Positions 30,151 to 38,700 of a DNA stretch of 40,847 nucleotides are shown in pieces. A program made the position numbers and the translations under genes. The stretch spans positions 2,029,505-2,070,351 of the forward strand of contig NW_001865041.1 of NCBI RefSeq assembly GCF_000002865.3, written 5' to 3'. Source of the stretch: Monosiga brevicollis MX1 (Eukaryota > Opisthokonta > Choanoflagellata > Craspedida > Salpingoecidae). The notes under the pieces are model-generated. The model was not told where the DNA came from and did no database searches. It was given only the letters and a program-made list of their open reading frames with translations. How positions within the stretch are numbered: position 1 is the first letter of the stretch; the number at the start of each line of letters is the position of its first letter.

Positions 30151-33100
30151 ATGTGGTGGCAGTCGCAGGCCGCGGTGGTGGTGCTGGTGGTGCATATGGG
30201 CCTTGTCCTTGGTGCACCGTGGGCACAGAAAAGCCTCCTCAAAGACCCTCTTCTCCGGCAAACGTTGTCTGGGGTGGAGTCGGCGATCCAGCGCAATGTT
30301 GCCCGAGTTGCTCTGCCAGAAACGGAGTCGGACTGGCCATTACTCGTAAATACCTTGAATTCTCACTTGCTGCCGTATTTGGAAGAGCGCGTGATCTTGC
30401 TGCGCGATGCACGTGGAAATCTCGTTGACTTTGAGAAGCTGGAGCTAGCAGCGCAGGGCCTCACCGTGGCTGGCCTGCTCTCAGAGAAATACTCCATTGT
30501 TGTCAAGCCCGAAGCATACCCGAGGCTGACAGGGGAGATCCCATTCTTTGCCGCCAACAGCGTCCACGAGGCACTGCAAAAGTTCCTCGGCGTACCCATG
30601 ACCCAACACTTTTATCTGTCGCCTTCTGCGCAGCGCGCGCTACCCCCGCACACAGACGGCGGTGACATTTTCGTGCACCAGTGGCGTGGCTCAAAGAACT
30701 GGACTTTGTGTGCCCCCAACAGCCAGTCGTCCACTTGTCCAAACTGCACATTTGCAGACCTCGCCCTGCAAGCCGAAGCCAAGCGCCAGGCCCTTGAAGG
30801 TCAGGCTCTTCTTAGGTCTCGTCATCCTTTCATGTACATCGCCCTTCAGGAAATTCGCGTTGTCGTCCCTGATGCGGTTTGTCTGCCTCACAGGTTGCTC
30901 GCAGTACAATGACCTCGACCTTGCCACAATGACTTGTCGTACCGTCTTGCTGTTGGAAAACGACCTGCTGTACATTCCGCGAGGAGTGGTGCACGTGGCA
31001 CAGACGCACTCTCTGGCTGCAAGCATCCACGCAACATATCAAGTCACGGCGCCTGCAGCCACCTGGCTGAGTTTGATGTTGGAACAGTGTCAAACCTTTA
31101 CTCCGCAGCGTACTTGTCTTGATATCCAGCGCCAGTTACTGCACGGTCATCTTGGTTTCCGCTGGCTTAATTATCGGCTACGCACGCCTCGAGTTCGGCC
31201 GCCCCTGCCTCCAAACTTGAAAGCTCAGGCCTACACACTACCTCGCACCAGGCTGATGCAGATGGTCTTGCGGCCAGCTTCCAGTGCCGTTGCTGGCATA
31301 CGCTCGGTGAGTCAATTCCTCTTTGAGCCTCGCGCTCTTCAAACGTGGTCTCATCGACAACCGTTGCACGCCCATCGATGTCTCTGTGTTCGGGCTGTTG
31401 ATGCGCAGCGGCGGTCGACGAAGACGGACTTCAACAGTGTTGACTGTGGCGCTTGCAAAAAGACCTGTGAGGATGGCTGGTATGGGTATTCGGCTTTTGG
31501 CACAGCCATGTTGTGCGCTAATATGATCGTGTTCTTTTGTTCGTCTTTGTCTCATGAGCGTTTGAGGTCTTTAGCGATGAAGGGTGTTTTTTATTTTTTC
31601 GTTGGTTTTGCCGAGAAGGATGCGATGATTCCTGCTGTAAGTTTCTCCGTGCAGTCTACAGACGCGCTTTGGCAACGCTTACCTTGTCATGGACGATTGT
31701 CATATTTGCAGCGGTCATGTGCGACGATACTTGTCGGTGCCCAGCAGGATGGGGAAGCGATTCGGAGGCATGCTTTAGTAAGGCCATGTTTTGGCTTTCC
31801 CAAATTTGGCTCACGTGCGTGCCTTGTGCAGCTTCCGTCTGATTCATGACGCTTGTGAATGTGACACCCAATCCTTGGTCTCAGAGTGCGATTCAGACTT
31901 TGTTACAGTCGATGATCGCTGCAGTGAGTCATGTCATCTGGCGATATGTTTTGTTTCGAACCCGTCTAATTCATGAGCCTGGCATCATCAGACATTATTG
32001 CGATTCTGCTTGAGCTGCCCAGGTCTTTGTTCGGAGGGAAAGTACCACGATGCCGTCACCTGCAGGAACTGCCCCGCAGGTAGGTGCGCTTGGCTAGTTG
32101 AATGCATTTGAAATAGTAAGTCATCAGAGACTAGCTTGCATGAGATCATGCTTGAATGAGGACCGCGTCAATATAGGAACCTATCAAAATGCACATAGTC
32201 ATTCTGAGGCATCGTGCAAGCCCCATGCTCAATGCCAGGCTGGCCAGATGGCCACCGGTAGCGCCAGGTGGGTACAGCGCGCCTGCGACTCTTGAAAATC
32301 CGATCTTCGCTCACACTTTGCGTTGCGCTCCTTTTCTCACTGGATCGACCGATCTGTAGCCCAACCACTGACCGGAGCTGCATTGCCTGTCCTTTGGGTT
32401 TGTGCTGGGCCTGCCAACGCGTCTCATACACCACTGCCGTTCGCTAACCAGCTCATTGTTTCAACAGGCACGTATCAAGATGCTGCTGTGCATACCTCGC
32501 TGGTTTGCAAAAACAAGACGCAATGTACTGGCGGGCAATACGATGCCAATGGAGCAAGGTTCGTGCGCACTCAGCTCTTTCACAGAGGGTCACTGAGAGC
32601 AAAATTCACCAGAGCCCGACGACGATGCATTTCAAGCTAAAAGACATGTCGTACATGCTTAGCCTTGTTCAAGACACAAACTGCACTGCGTGCCCAGGGG
32701 GTAGGTTCTGCGCCAATGCGTTGCGTTTTGAGGCTTGAGGCGTCTCCACACTCGTACTAATTCTTATCCACGCCTAGGCACATATCAAGATGCAACGTCA
32801 CACCTTCAGACACTGTGTCATGCCAAGTCGGGTCATTGCCCACCGGGCTTTCACCTCAATGCTGGGGATGGTGCCTTGGAAGATAACAGTTGTATCCCCT
32901 GTATTCCGGGTATGCATGCCCGACCCAAACTTGCTTGTTTGTCAGACTCTGCCACCACCTCACTTCTTCCATCTTGCAAAGGTACTTGGATCAACATGAC
33001 CAACAATGCATCGCGTTGCTGGGACAAGCAACCATGCAGCGCTGGCACTGAGGCTGTGAATCCCACGGACACAATTGCTGACAGCCTGTGCATTCGTTGC

Positions 33101-35321
33101 CCCCCAGGTTAGCACGAGCGCATGCCGGCTTTTATGTATCAGCCACAGCTCTCACTCAAACGGGCAATAGGCACATTTCAAAATGCGTCAGGGGCTACTG
33201 TACTTTGCACGAACAAAACAAGGACTTGCGACTCTGGCGAATTTGTAGCCAACTTCAACGCCACGAACCAAGACTACGAATGCAGCCCGTGCCCTGTTGG
33301 AACCGCTCAGGCGTACAGCGCCCATGTCAACACAACTTGTGCTGGTGTGTTCGTCCTCGGGCGCATGCACCTTTTGCTCTTCTCAACCTGTCAAGCCAAA
33401 AGCAAACGCCCAGGACATGCAGAGTTTTGTTCTTGAGTTGCTCTCAATACCACTCAACTCGTTTGTTGTGTCGATATAGCCTGTGTTTCCGGCAAGTATC
33501 AACCTTGGCCAGGACAAGCAACATGCCTTGACTGTCCCGGTGGTTCTCCGACGGGAGCTTTTATTTGTGCTTCGGCCCAACACAGCTCAGGCAACCCAGA
33601 AACCTCCTTCCCCTTTGAAATCGTGACAAGCAGTGCCCTTGCAGCTGTTGTCGTCGTTTTGGGTGTGCTCCTTCTGTTGCGAGCTCGTCGACATAAAAGA
33701 AGTAAACTCAGCGCTCAGCCTATTCACGCCGATGGCCAGCTTGCGTTGCACACAATGTCAACGGATTTGGTGGGAGCCGTACATCCCAGCAGTGTGCACC
33801 TGGCCCATCAGTTGGGCTCTGGAGCCTTTGGCCTTGTGTACCAAGGCTTGGTGCAGCTGCAGGGCATGAACACAACGCAGATTGTGGCGGTTGAAGTCCT
33901 GCCGGGCTCCGCCTCTCTGGAGGAACAGGATGCGTTTTGCACGTACCTCGGTCGCCTTGAGGCACTGGGCCCGCATCCAAATCTTGTTGATTTGCTCGGG
34001 CACTGCCTCGGCGATACGCCCCTGATGGGGCTCTTTACTCTGGGTAATCTGGGCAGCCTTCGCGAACTTTTACGCGCAAGCCGGCAACCTTCAGATTCTT
34101 TAAGCTTGAAGGGGGCAAATCTCACCTCATTGGCTCGAGATGTGGCATGCGGTATGGCTTACCTAAGCCTACATGGCATACAGCACGGCTACCTGTGCGC
34201 TGCAAACGTAAGCCATGCTTTCCAATACACAATTAACACTCAATCGGCCAGCGACACGAGGGACGACGCGTTGTGTGTTCCTGTCACCAAACCGCTTTCT
34301 CTTCCTAGGTCTTGGTGGATTCTGATCGAGCATGCCGCGTTTCGCGGCATTGTGCCCCTTTGCCTGCACACAGAACCTATGAGCGGTGGTTGGCGCCCGA
34401 GCTCTGGGAGGCCTCTGCACCCTTGTCTCAGCCGGGTGATGGTGCGTACTTTTTTTGAACACCCGTCTTGTGATACAAATCAGCATCTGCTCAGTCACAT
34501 AATGACCTCCCTCTCGCCTGGTAGTTTGGGCCTTTGGCGTCACGGCATGGGAGATCTTCACGCTTGGCGCAACACCGTACGTAACGCAGCCCGTTTTCGA
34601 GCTCAAACCATGGCTGGCATCGGGTCATCGCCTTGAAAAGCCTAGATTGGCTTCTGCGGCAACATTTGCCCTCTTGACAGACTGTTGGGCAGCTGAAGCA
34701 CAACAGCGTCCAGATTTCACTGCTCTCAATGACGCATTCGGTCAAAGTGAAGCCTGCCATATTCCCGTCGACGGTGCCGAGGCTGCTGGGGCTTTTGAAA
34801 GCGCTGTCCCATCGTATGAGGTCATTGATTACGAGCTCGAAGGCCAGCAACCATCAGGCTTGGCGGCGGCATCCCGCCCGCAGTTTGCGCGTGATCCTGA
34901 CGCGGGCGGAGTGCCGACATTCACCATGAACCCAGTGTTTCAGCCCAGTTATGTGGACGCAACATACGTCCACCTCACGTCCCCATACCAGACGACCCCG
35001 GGAGAACTCCAGACGCAGCCAACGTACAACAAACTTTGTCCGTCATCAAGAACCTCAAGAACCACGCTGTCATCATCAGCAGCTGGCACAGAACCATGCT
35101 ACGCCTTGGTCGACGAGGCATCATTTTCAGCATGTACTGCCAACAATGACGGGATGGGCACAAATCCGTCAGTCAGCATCGCTCACAATGACACCGAGAC
35201 GACGGCTTTGCCTTCCACAGTCACTGGAAACAACTTGTACGGCGTTCTTATGACTCTGCAACACCTTGCGAACTCGCCGACATCAGATCCAAATTCTCAG
35301 GGCACCGACACCCTTGCGTAA
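30151..35321 (+). CDS. Receptor with extracellular JmjC/cupin domain, Cys-rich modules and intracellular tyrosine pseudokinase
   Basis: Start ATG at 30151 gives a signal peptide (AAVVVLVVHMGLVLG). Exons 30151-30799 and 30894-31306 encode a JmjC fold of the NO66/JMJD type. The iron ligands are His167 and Asp169 (PPHTDGGDIFVHQWRGSKNW) and His250 (LLYIPRGVVHVAQT). A phase-0 intron then joins exon 31409-31479 in the same frame, beginning about ten Cys-rich exons with modules such as GTYQDA, TDRSCIACP and CRCPAGWGSD. Exon 33480-34207 has the membrane helix (LAAVVVVLGVLLLLRARR) and the kinase N-lobe with G-loop LGSGAFGLVY. The remaining exons are 34309-34441 and 34525-35321. The kinase fold is complete (APELW, DVWAFGVTAWEIFTLGATPY, CWAAEAQQRPDF), but catalytic residues are lost: VAVEVL for VAIK, HGYLCAAN for HRDLAARN, and no DFG. 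The tail has YVHL, YNKL, YALV and YGVL. One small Cys-rich exon near 31.8 kb is not resolved. Confidence 0.85.
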
Positions 35322-35778: not shown

Positions 35779-38700
35779 ATGCCCCATGTCGACGCGGTGC
35801 CGTGCAAACAGTGCGGCCAGACGTTTCCCAACAGAGGGGCCAAAGATCAGCACGTCTCTCGGGTGCGTCCATCGCCGCACAGACCTTGGTCAACAACATC
35901 ACGGCTCATCATGCTCGAATGATAGGTCCACCAGAGGAGCACGTACATCAAGCTCGATGGACAAGCTATACTCCGACATCGAGAAGATGACGGCAACTTT
36001 TCTTGCCCCGTAGACGAGTGCGACTACCGGCATGATCGCTCGGCTGGCCTCAAATCGCATCTTCGCCACATGCATGACCGAGAAGCACCTGGTCCTGCAA
36101 CACCGATCCCATCCAATGATCATCCGCTCCAGCACCGAAAACATAGACGCGTGCGCTCCCAGAAGCGTCGAGTTGCTTTTGACCAACAGCACGGCGTGGC
36201 CGGGGCTCGGGTGTTCATGACCGACATTGGCTGTCTCGTTTCCCCTGGTTCTGCGTCACTGGTGTGCACGCCCTGCAAACGCGTGCTTTGTGGGAGCGTG
36301 CCAAATCACCTGCTCAAGAAGCATCACATTCGATGCAGTCAAGATGACATTGATGCAGCCACGGCACTCCTGCGCTCCCTGCAGCCCGGGGAGCCGCCGA
36401 TGGATATTGCAACCGTCTCCGGGCCGCGCGCCCCTCTGGAAGGCATACCTATTCTGAACGGCGTGGGTTGCCCCCTGTGTCAGGCATGCTTCACGACCAA
36501 GAAAAGCCTGCAATATCACTTGCACACAAAACATGTTGGTGACCCGGGCATCAACCACCCACCCCGACGCGTCAAGTTGCAAAAGCCGCAGCGTGGTGCC
36601 GGGGCCCGCTGTGTTGAGGTGCTTGTCGAGGAGAGCCACGACGCCTCGGCAGCCGATGTCAGCGAGAATGAGGAGGAGCTGGAGGAGCAGCAGCGGTTCA
36701 ATCAGCTGGTATCTAGTATCCAGGCCATGGCATCAGATGCCGAAGAAAAGCGCTGCCCGCATGGCGTTCACCAGATGCACCCGTTCTACGATAGCGTGGG
36801 CATGACGCTGATCCTGAGTGAGCTGACCCCAGAGCAAATTCTCAAGCTGGGCCACGACACCCCGCCCGCACCACTTGTGTCGGGCATGCAAGAGCTCTTC
36901 TGGGAGGCCCACGCACAACTGTCCCAGCACGGTCTGGCGGCTGCTTCCGTGGCGTCCTTGTTCGAAGATGAAGAGTTTCAAGTTCAGCCGCAATCTTTAC
37001 CCCAAGTATCTCCTGGCACGATGAGCAGGTACCTGAACATCGCAGCGCGCCTGGTGCATTTTTTACTGCTGCTGGAAGCGATGCCAGCCCCCGAGCCATC
37101 CAGCTTTTTGAGCCAGGTGCTTGCCAGCCGTGGGGAGGTCATAACTACAGCTGCCTTGGCTGTGCAAGAGGAGCTGGATGCGGGACTGAGCGGGGCAGAT
37201 CTTGTCGAGCCCTTGGCGGCCCTGTGGCTGGCGCTGGTGAATGCAGAGCTACACCTCTTTGACAACGACAAGGTGCACTTTGTCAACGTGTTTTTGTTGT
37301 GCACGGCCGTTTCCACGGGAAGCGGTCTTTTGCAGGACATCCGGCGCTGGACCACGACGCTGGCCGGCCTGATTTATATTTTCAAGCTGTTTTTGCTCCG
37401 GTTTGGCAAGGCACAGCGATGGGCCACTGCGGGTAAACTCAGGCCTTTCCTACAGCCCGGACGGCTGGTGCATTTTTTGAGCCAGCGCATGGCGGCGGCT
37501 CGCTCTGCCAGCACGGCCGAGGGGCAGGTTGGAGTGGATATTGAGGTGCAAGCGGACGGTGACATGAGGGACGAGGCGTTGCACACTATCGTTTGTCAGG
37601 GTACTGAACTCAACGTGAAAGAGATTGGAACCGCCCTGGCACAGATGCGCAACGATATGAAGGAGGTCTTGGACACCCATCTCTTGCTGGGATCTGGTCT
37701 GCGAGAGCAACACATTGGCGAGTATGCTCGGCTACGGTCGAAGGAGGATCGGACCAACAGGGTCAAGAATTGGTGGGTGGGCCATGGCAGCCCAGCTGAG
37801 CGGGCCCTATTGGATCACATTGGCCAGACTCCGAGCTTGCGGCAAGAGTTTATCTGCACAGGGCTTGGCCCAGAAGGAGCTAATGAAGAGCGGACCTTTC
37901 GGGAAGACCGCGTGCGGGAATGGCTTCTATTTGTGGGAAGGTTCAACCAGCTGGCGCTCACCTACACGCACGTGGCTGGAGGTATGATTGCGATTGAGCA
38001 AAGACTCTGTTTGAGAAGCTTGGCATGTTTATTGTACCACTCTTATCTGTTTGCATTGGCTTTGGCGTTTTGTTAGGTCTGCCACCTCAAGCAACCGTAT
38101 ATCAAGGGCTATCCTACAGAAATGGCGTGGGCCGGCAACGGGCCGTATTTTTTGCTGAAAAGCAACTCTTCATATTGACCCGTCTGGGTCAAACCCACGG
38201 GCTCTCTCCGGATGAGCAGCACGCCTATCGGTACATGGACGAGGAAGTCAGCAAGCTGATTTTCATGTATTTGCTCTTGTGCAAGCCCCTGGAGCAGATG
38301 CTGACGAGCTGGCTGGAAAAGCGGGGTGTTCTTCAAACCCCTTGCGATGGCGGGCGTGGGACCTACGACGATGATCAGGAAGAGGAGGATCTGTTGGAGG
38401 ACGAGCAGGATGAAGACCACATGAGCCTCGACGATGGCATGACCTTGCGACGCGAGGTACAAGACGCTCAACGCCACTATAACAACAGCCATTTGCTCTT
38501 CAACATTGCGCCTCTGCAGACCATGCTCAGCCCAGCCTCCATCTACGCTGCCTTTCGTCGACAAATGACCACCTACCTGCATCAGCCTACGCTGGGAGTG
38601 GCAAAGTGGCGACACGCCGCGACCTTCTGGATGACAACATTTGTGACAAACCGGCTCTTTGCCGACCCCGCGAGCACTTTGGGTAGCCTGATGCGCACCC

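Follow-up and report, generated by a model that had tools for sequence, protein, structure and literature searches.

JmjC ectodomains in a predicted receptor family of Monosiga brevicollis that includes a receptor pseudokinase and the RTKB2 locus

Most work on JmjC oxygenases concerns the nucleus, the cytosol or the endoplasmic reticulum. Here, we describe a gene of the choanoflagellate Monosiga brevicollis MX1 which is predicted to place a JmjC domain outside the cell, at the N-terminus of a receptor. The gene lies on the plus strand at positions 30151-35321 of a stretch of 40,847 nucleotides (contig NW_001865041.1, positions 2,029,505 to 2,070,351), which is called the window in the following and ends where the contig ends. 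On the sequence evidence presented below it is very probably one receptor gene, combining a JmjC ectodomain with a cysteine-rich (Cys-rich) stalk, a transmembrane (TM) helix and a kinase fold. A protein search of the genome found at least 22 JmjC loci of this kind, and the predicted arrangement is common to a family in M. brevicollis. An UNC18 exon encoded in this genome is identical at 47 of 48 positions to PDB 2XHE, a structure from M. brevicollis. Individual loci are referred to by our handles (such as C38, C51 or L024; the window is C54).

The locus and its predicted product

We assembled the gene model manually, relying on homology of its exons with those of paralogues and on consistent phases and splice sites. 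It comprises 17 exons in one frame of 1,234 amino acids (aa) and 16 introns, all of which are GT-AG and between 63 and 135 bp in length. The small exons 4, 6, 7, 9 and 11 are supported chiefly by frame and splice sites. The encoded parts are, in this order, a hydrophobic leader, a JmjC_2 domain, the Cys-rich stalk, a single TM helix (aa 730-748), a tyrosine-kinase fold and a tyrosine-bearing tail, with leader and TM helix called on hydrophobicity and not by a signal-peptide predictor. The features are as follows.

30151..30216, plus strand: probable signal peptide, aa 1-22, called on Kyte-Doolittle hydrophobicity with the cut point set by eye
30151..30799, plus strand: exon 1, N-terminal region plus the first JmjC_2 half, including H167 at 30649-30651, D169 at 30655-30657 and Lys182 at 30694-30696
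30894..31306, plus strand: exon 2, second half of JmjC_2, with the predicted distal iron ligand His250 at 30992-30994
31307-31408: intron 2, joining the JmjC part to the stalk, 102 bp, GT-AG, phase 0
31301..31414, plus strand: furin-type site R-S-R-R, aa 353-356, split by intron 2
31409..33344, plus strand: Cys-rich stalk, exons 3-14, Ephrin_rec_like, with TNFR_c6-like matches below the cut-off
31409-31479, 31575-31636, 31712-31777, 31885-31923: exons 3-6
32023-32079, 32177-32267, 32360-32397, 32468-32558: exons 7-10
32663-32700, 32778-32909, 32982-33107, 33171-33344: exons 11-14
33480..34207, plus strand: exon 15, end of the stalk, TM helix (33620-33676) and start of the kinase fold, with Glu for the VAIK Lys at 33893-33895 and HGY for HRD at 34184-34192
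33797..34733, plus strand: tyrosine-kinase fold (predicted pseudokinase), spliced from exons 15-17
34309..34441, plus strand: exon 16, activation-loop region, DFG lost
34525..35321, plus strand: exon 17, C-lobe and tail with 8 Tyr past the kinase fold, TAA stop at 35319-35321

The initial annotation had placed a signal peptide on the JmjC exons and a phase-0 intron, open in frame if retained, between these exons and the stalk; the hydrophobicity scan found the leader, and the intron was confirmed at 31307-31408. In the stalk, the Ephrin_rec_like match reaches an expectation value (E) of 5.6e-10.

A Pfam search on the spliced protein bore out the JmjC assignment with a match to JmjC_2 (PF08007) at aa 132-272 (E 3.2e-13; 49.8 bits against a cut-off of 22). 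The closest solved structures by sequence are MINA53/RIOX2 (E 5.8e-9) and NO66/RIOX1 (E 1.3e-5), and the iron triad and a lysine align with those of the window domain. The MINA53 alignment consists of two pieces, the first of which contains H167, D169 and K182 and the second H250; taken alone, the second piece is weak (i-Evalue 0.44). Their partners in MINA53 are H179, D181, K194 and H240, which we take to be its ligands, so the H-x-D...H triad proposed at the outset (H167, D169, H250) appears intact and is accompanied by K182. MINA53 and NO66 are nuclear, stand-alone oxygenases, the ribosomal-oxygenase kin hydroxylate His or Arg side chains, and RIOX proteins carry a C-terminal winged-helix domain. 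Unlike these enzymes, the JmjC domain of the window bears cysteines (7 within the first 354 residues of the protein), stands behind a hydrophobic leader and forms the N-terminal part of a predicted receptor. A search for bacterial or viral relatives, sensitive to close relatives only, gave 2 IMG/VR and 25 GTDB stretches matching peptide patterns, none of which was confirmed.

On the other side of the TM helix, the protein matches PK_Tyr_Ser-Thr at aa 789-1039 (E 4.5e-48). The tyrosine-kinase fold expected inside the cell is present behind a single TM helix, but its catalytic residues are lost. Compared with the kinase of the paralogue C51, which retains the VAIK Lys, HRD and DFG, the window copy and those of C18 and C56 carry Glu for the VAIK Lys and have lost HRD and DFG. 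Because of these losses, the predicted product of the window gene is a receptor pseudokinase and not a working receptor tyrosine kinase (RTK). Catalytic residues are thus lost in three of the five kinase-bearing JmjC members; in the remaining one, C38, Lys and HRD are present and the DFG exon was not recovered. Among metazoan receptors, CCK4/PTK7 and ErbB3 are single-pass pseudokinases having a kinase fold without catalytic residues. The window copy resembles them in its architecture of TM helix and dead kinase, while the ectodomains are unrelated. According to the excerpts of PMC3584944 available to us, catalytic residues are absent from 3 of 9 RTKB kinases, and we infer that the window, C18 and C56 are these three.

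One receptor gene or two adjacent genes

A single receptor with a JmjC ectodomain, as first suggested by the phase-0 junction, is supported by the continuous 17-exon model and by the paralogues. From the window stalk, 12 queries were prepared, leaving out exon 4 and letting the last query run into exon 15. Seven of these match behind the JmjC part in C51, C55 and C38 (E 2e-4 or better) and keep the order and strand of the window, with two of them sharing one place. An eighth query matches in C55 and C38, and the matches of the remaining four (exons 6, 7, 9 and 11) are weak or partly out of place. At L024, an uninterrupted frame of 1,467 codons joins the distal half of JmjC_2 (E 2.8e-7) to six Ephrin_rec_like and two TNFR_c6 stretches, so that at this locus the fusion is shown without a splicing argument. 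Ten further loci (L010, L012, L019, L021, L022, L028, L033, L034, L035 and L039) run in one frame from the JmjC half to at least the first stalk Cys. Beyond the junction, a tyrosine-kinase fold follows on the same strand at no fewer than five of the 22 JmjC loci, namely the window, C38, C51, C18 and C56; a crude estimate, which assumes 120 kinase loci and a distance of 8 kb, puts the chance of such adjacency at 6e-6.

The alternative is a pair of adjacent genes, one for a JmjC protein that is secreted and the other for the Cys-rich receptor pseudokinase, and two results speak for it and weigh against the fusion at the window. Both gene-finder runs split the locus: the self-trained, unsupervised finder called only 33755-35321 in this stretch, and the run with rewarded exon cores and intergenic sequence allowed gave 30151-33112 and 33122-35321. 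Between 31307 and 33480 there are 54 ATGs, three of which (31508, 31577 and 31973) are possible starts of an alternative first exon that would be hydrophobic and splice in frame to a later stalk exon. Coding-potential scores separate the frames (exon 1, 7.4 versus -56 and -61; exon 2, -0.5 versus -24 and -40), but coding from non-coding sequence barely.

The call of the self-trained finder was set aside, as this finder proved too weak. The split at 33112/33122 was rejected because it leaves a gap of 9 bp between the genes and a second gene without a hydrophobic leader, and because the paralogues contradict it. Similarly, the three candidate ATGs reach hydrophobic peaks of 2.13-2.32 compared with 2.83 for the real leader, the donor sites of the alternative first exons are mostly poor, and such exons leave exon 3 unexplained. 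The homologues of exon 3 directly follow a stop codon in C38 and C51 and stand three codons after one in C55, without any Met ahead of the Cys motif, which argues against an independent start of the stalk. Together with the small size of the largest intron (only 135 bp) and the loci fused in a single frame, this makes two separate genes very improbable.

RTKB2 and the wider JmjC family

The paralogue C51 connects the single JmjC receptor proposed for the window with a published receptor. Its tail holds SEEVYGAVVD, the core of the RTKB2-1 peptide (PMC3584944), as well as EEVYEAIAD of RTKB2-2, the latter after a Cys where the published peptide has Ala. On account of these peptide matches, C51 was assigned to RTKB2. 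As far as the excerpts of the same paper go, the kinase domain of RTKB2 was amplified from a complementary DNA (cDNA) library and shown to be active, and the parts named for this receptor in the legend of its figure are Cys, HYR, SCR, E, tm and RM2, with no JmjC among them. These published parts fit C51 by eye (Cys-rich, HYR/Ig-like, SCR, EGF, TM, kinase and RM2-like tail). Since the RTKB2 diagram shows no JmjC domain and its locus has one, published diagrams cannot reveal whether this species has Cys-rich receptors that are JmjC-less. Our models of C51 were forced as one gene with intergenic sequence forbidden and so are not evidence for one gene; one of them keeps an in-frame kinase stretch that is probably an intron. 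Relative to the published numbering, the kinase start of the forced model is shifted by 134 residues towards the C-terminus; this is only suggestive of a published RTKB2 model that begins with Met133, an internal methionine of JmjC exon 1.

In a tree of 16 distal JmjC halves, the window groups with C51 (that is, RTKB2), C38 and C55 (97/95), and C18 and C56 stand together elsewhere (90/85); because of long branches the deep structure of this tree is unsafe, and the grouping concerns JmjC halves only. The window copy differs from RTKB2 in lacking a HYR match and in its dead kinase. At least eight of the 22 members (window, C38, C51, C55, C18, C56, C12:71k and C47) have a TM helix, recognised partly by eye, and the tails behind it are of different kinds. 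That of C51 combines an active-looking kinase with RM2-like repeats. The C12:71k frame contains two SH2 stretches besides Tyr repeats and lacks a kinase; the tails of C55 and C47 are rich in Tyr, and no kinase was seen within the part examined.

With respect to other receptors of this organism, RTKC8 of the RTKC family likewise has a Cys-rich ectodomain, plus HYR, a single TM helix and a kinase (PMC10263333); it differs in its active kinase and its CAP-Gly tail, and no JmjC is mentioned in the part of that paper available to us. By term counts, ‘JmjC’ is absent from the main texts of PMC8662651, PMC3584944 and PMC6993872. A description of a JmjC-ectodomain receptor was not found in the literature searched, which was covered mostly at title level and did not include the 2008 kinome survey. 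Tyrosine-kinase-type receptors of choanoflagellates with this class of ectodomain are undescribed in the literature covered.

Several further observations concern members and neighbours of the family. The last frame of the C12 member (L020, G000:C12, 6005-9901, together with L048) ends, without a kinase, after two SH2 stretches; it further encodes Ig-like/HYR repeats, a TM helix and many YEEP/YASPYEP motifs, and the predicted product is a receptor with an unusual tail. A second JmjC subgroup consists of five loci (L009/L019, L010, L012, L014 and L015) with a Cys-rich continuation where read; L010 and L012 are nearly identical. For three of the kinase-bearing receptors (C54, C38 and C51) the nearest contig end is no more than about 20 kb away, and they may be subtelomeric. 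A zinc-finger-like frame (35926-38076) follows the JmjC receptor in the window, and a related stretch is found downstream of RTKB2 (L049, G000:C51, 221-72, minus strand; 36% over 50 aa, E 3e-7), so that a duplicated block is possible. Tyrosine-kinase matches at C41:162147, C15:194198, C20:231140 and C22:285031 break at about the same profile positions as that of C51, and the protein search of the genome gave no JmjC match near them; these loci may be RTKB members without JmjC.

A possible oxygenase subunit and its meaning

Two properties of the family bear on the function of the ectodomain. The first is the conservation of the H-x-D motif, the Lys and the distal His at all 22 JmjC loci, as far as piecewise readings rather than full models can tell. 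The retention of these residues for iron and 2-oxoglutarate (2OG) favours a domain that binds metal and 2OG over an empty fold. Ratios of nonsynonymous to synonymous substitution (dN/dS) among C38, C51 and C55 are 0.08-0.23 for JmjC exons 1 and 2, while catalytic residues of the kinase are lost in three of the five kinase-bearing members. The second is a basic site between the JmjC part and the stalk. With corrected junctions, 14 linkers from the 22 loci were tested, and 10 of them carry R-X-[KR]-R immediately ahead of the stalk, as RSRR in the window, RKRR in C51, RTRR in C38 and C55, and RNRR, RSRR, RLRR, RQRR, RRRR or RMRR in others. Shuffled linkers gave a mean of 0.47 and never as many as 10 (0/20,000), and the motif is found in 0/14 of the 32 aa upstream in the same linkers. 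The window protein contains just two other R-X-[KR]-R motifs, both at the juxtamembrane boundary. Eight of the 22 loci are outside this count: C44, C28, C34:179k (linker crosses intron), C46 (near-duplicate of C32), both C41 loci, and C12:71k and C47 (linker not resolved). Among the linkers that cross an intron, RHRR was seen in L029 and L031. Three genomic sites match the P_proprotein domain (best E 4.8e-17).

The furin-type site, in a linker taken to be exposed, suggests that the JmjC part may be cut off, and the predicted product is an oxygenase subunit in the lumen or outside the cell which is probably cut from the receptor. Our proposal, to which we give a little more than even credence, is that the JmjC part works as an oxygenase in the secretory lumen or extracellularly and that a furin-like protease detaches it from the stalk. 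In this mechanism, the gene would encode a type I surface receptor of the JmjC-ectodomain family, whose JmjC domain would fold in the secretory lumen as an Fe(II)/2OG oxygenase. A furin-like convertase would then cut it from the stalk, after which it might stay bound as an N-terminal subunit or be released. Its substrate could be the receptor's own stalk or an extracellular partner. The membrane part would signal via whichever tail each member carries. For the window copy, the pseudokinase and the tail tyrosines could form a scaffold phosphorylated by another kinase, perhaps by an RTKB partner such as RTKB2.

Several points count against this proposal. The strict furin motif is absent from 4 of the 14 linkers, the shuffle test overstates independence because these linkers are related, and two of the three P_proprotein matches belong to very long frames that may not encode convertases. 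Among C38, C51 and C55, the homologue of exon 3 (22 codons at the start of the stalk) has a dN/dS of 0.40-1.02, so that this short linker exon is weakly constrained. Furthermore, 2OG and Fe(II) are scarce outside cells, so that catalysis may be confined to the lumen or the fold may only bind. This last thought leads to an uncut, non-catalytic ectodomain which binds a ligand or metal and senses a small molecule, iron or 2OG. Receptors often reuse enzyme folds, and the linkers without the strict motif would fit. The complete HxD...K...H set at every locus stands against mere binding, and the basic cluster before the stalk against an uncut protein, as [KR]R is present in 12 of 14 linkers even with the junctions of C38, C51 and C55 uncorrected. 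On balance, we consider such a binding-only ectodomain rather unlikely. Less probable still is a JmjC part acting as prodomain or intramolecular chaperone, which would modify or fold the stalk during secretion and be cut off without any surface role; its position, the furin-type site, the Cys-rich partner and the leader would all fit it.

The cut oxygenase subunit, extended to the whole family, leads to a broader and more tentative reading, which we hold to be possible and well short of probable. In this reading, a family of about 22 proteins of a unicellular relative of animals, at least eight of them with a TM helix, would carry an active 2OG oxygenase as a furin-processed N-terminal subunit that couples oxygen, iron or 2OG outside the cell, or the hydroxylation of a ligand, to diverse tails, comprising active kinases, pseudokinases and kinase-free Tyr/SH2 tails. 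That the oxygenase residues are retained while the kinase has decayed shows at which end of the protein selection has been maintained. For all M. brevicollis RTKs the ligands are given as unknown in the excerpts of PMC3584944, and the JmjC ectodomain is a clue for such receptors. If true, the family, which includes with RTKB2 a member whose kinase has already been studied biochemically, would offer a direct route to finding out if oxygen, iron or 2OG is sensed, or ligands are hydroxylated, at the surface of choanoflagellate cells.

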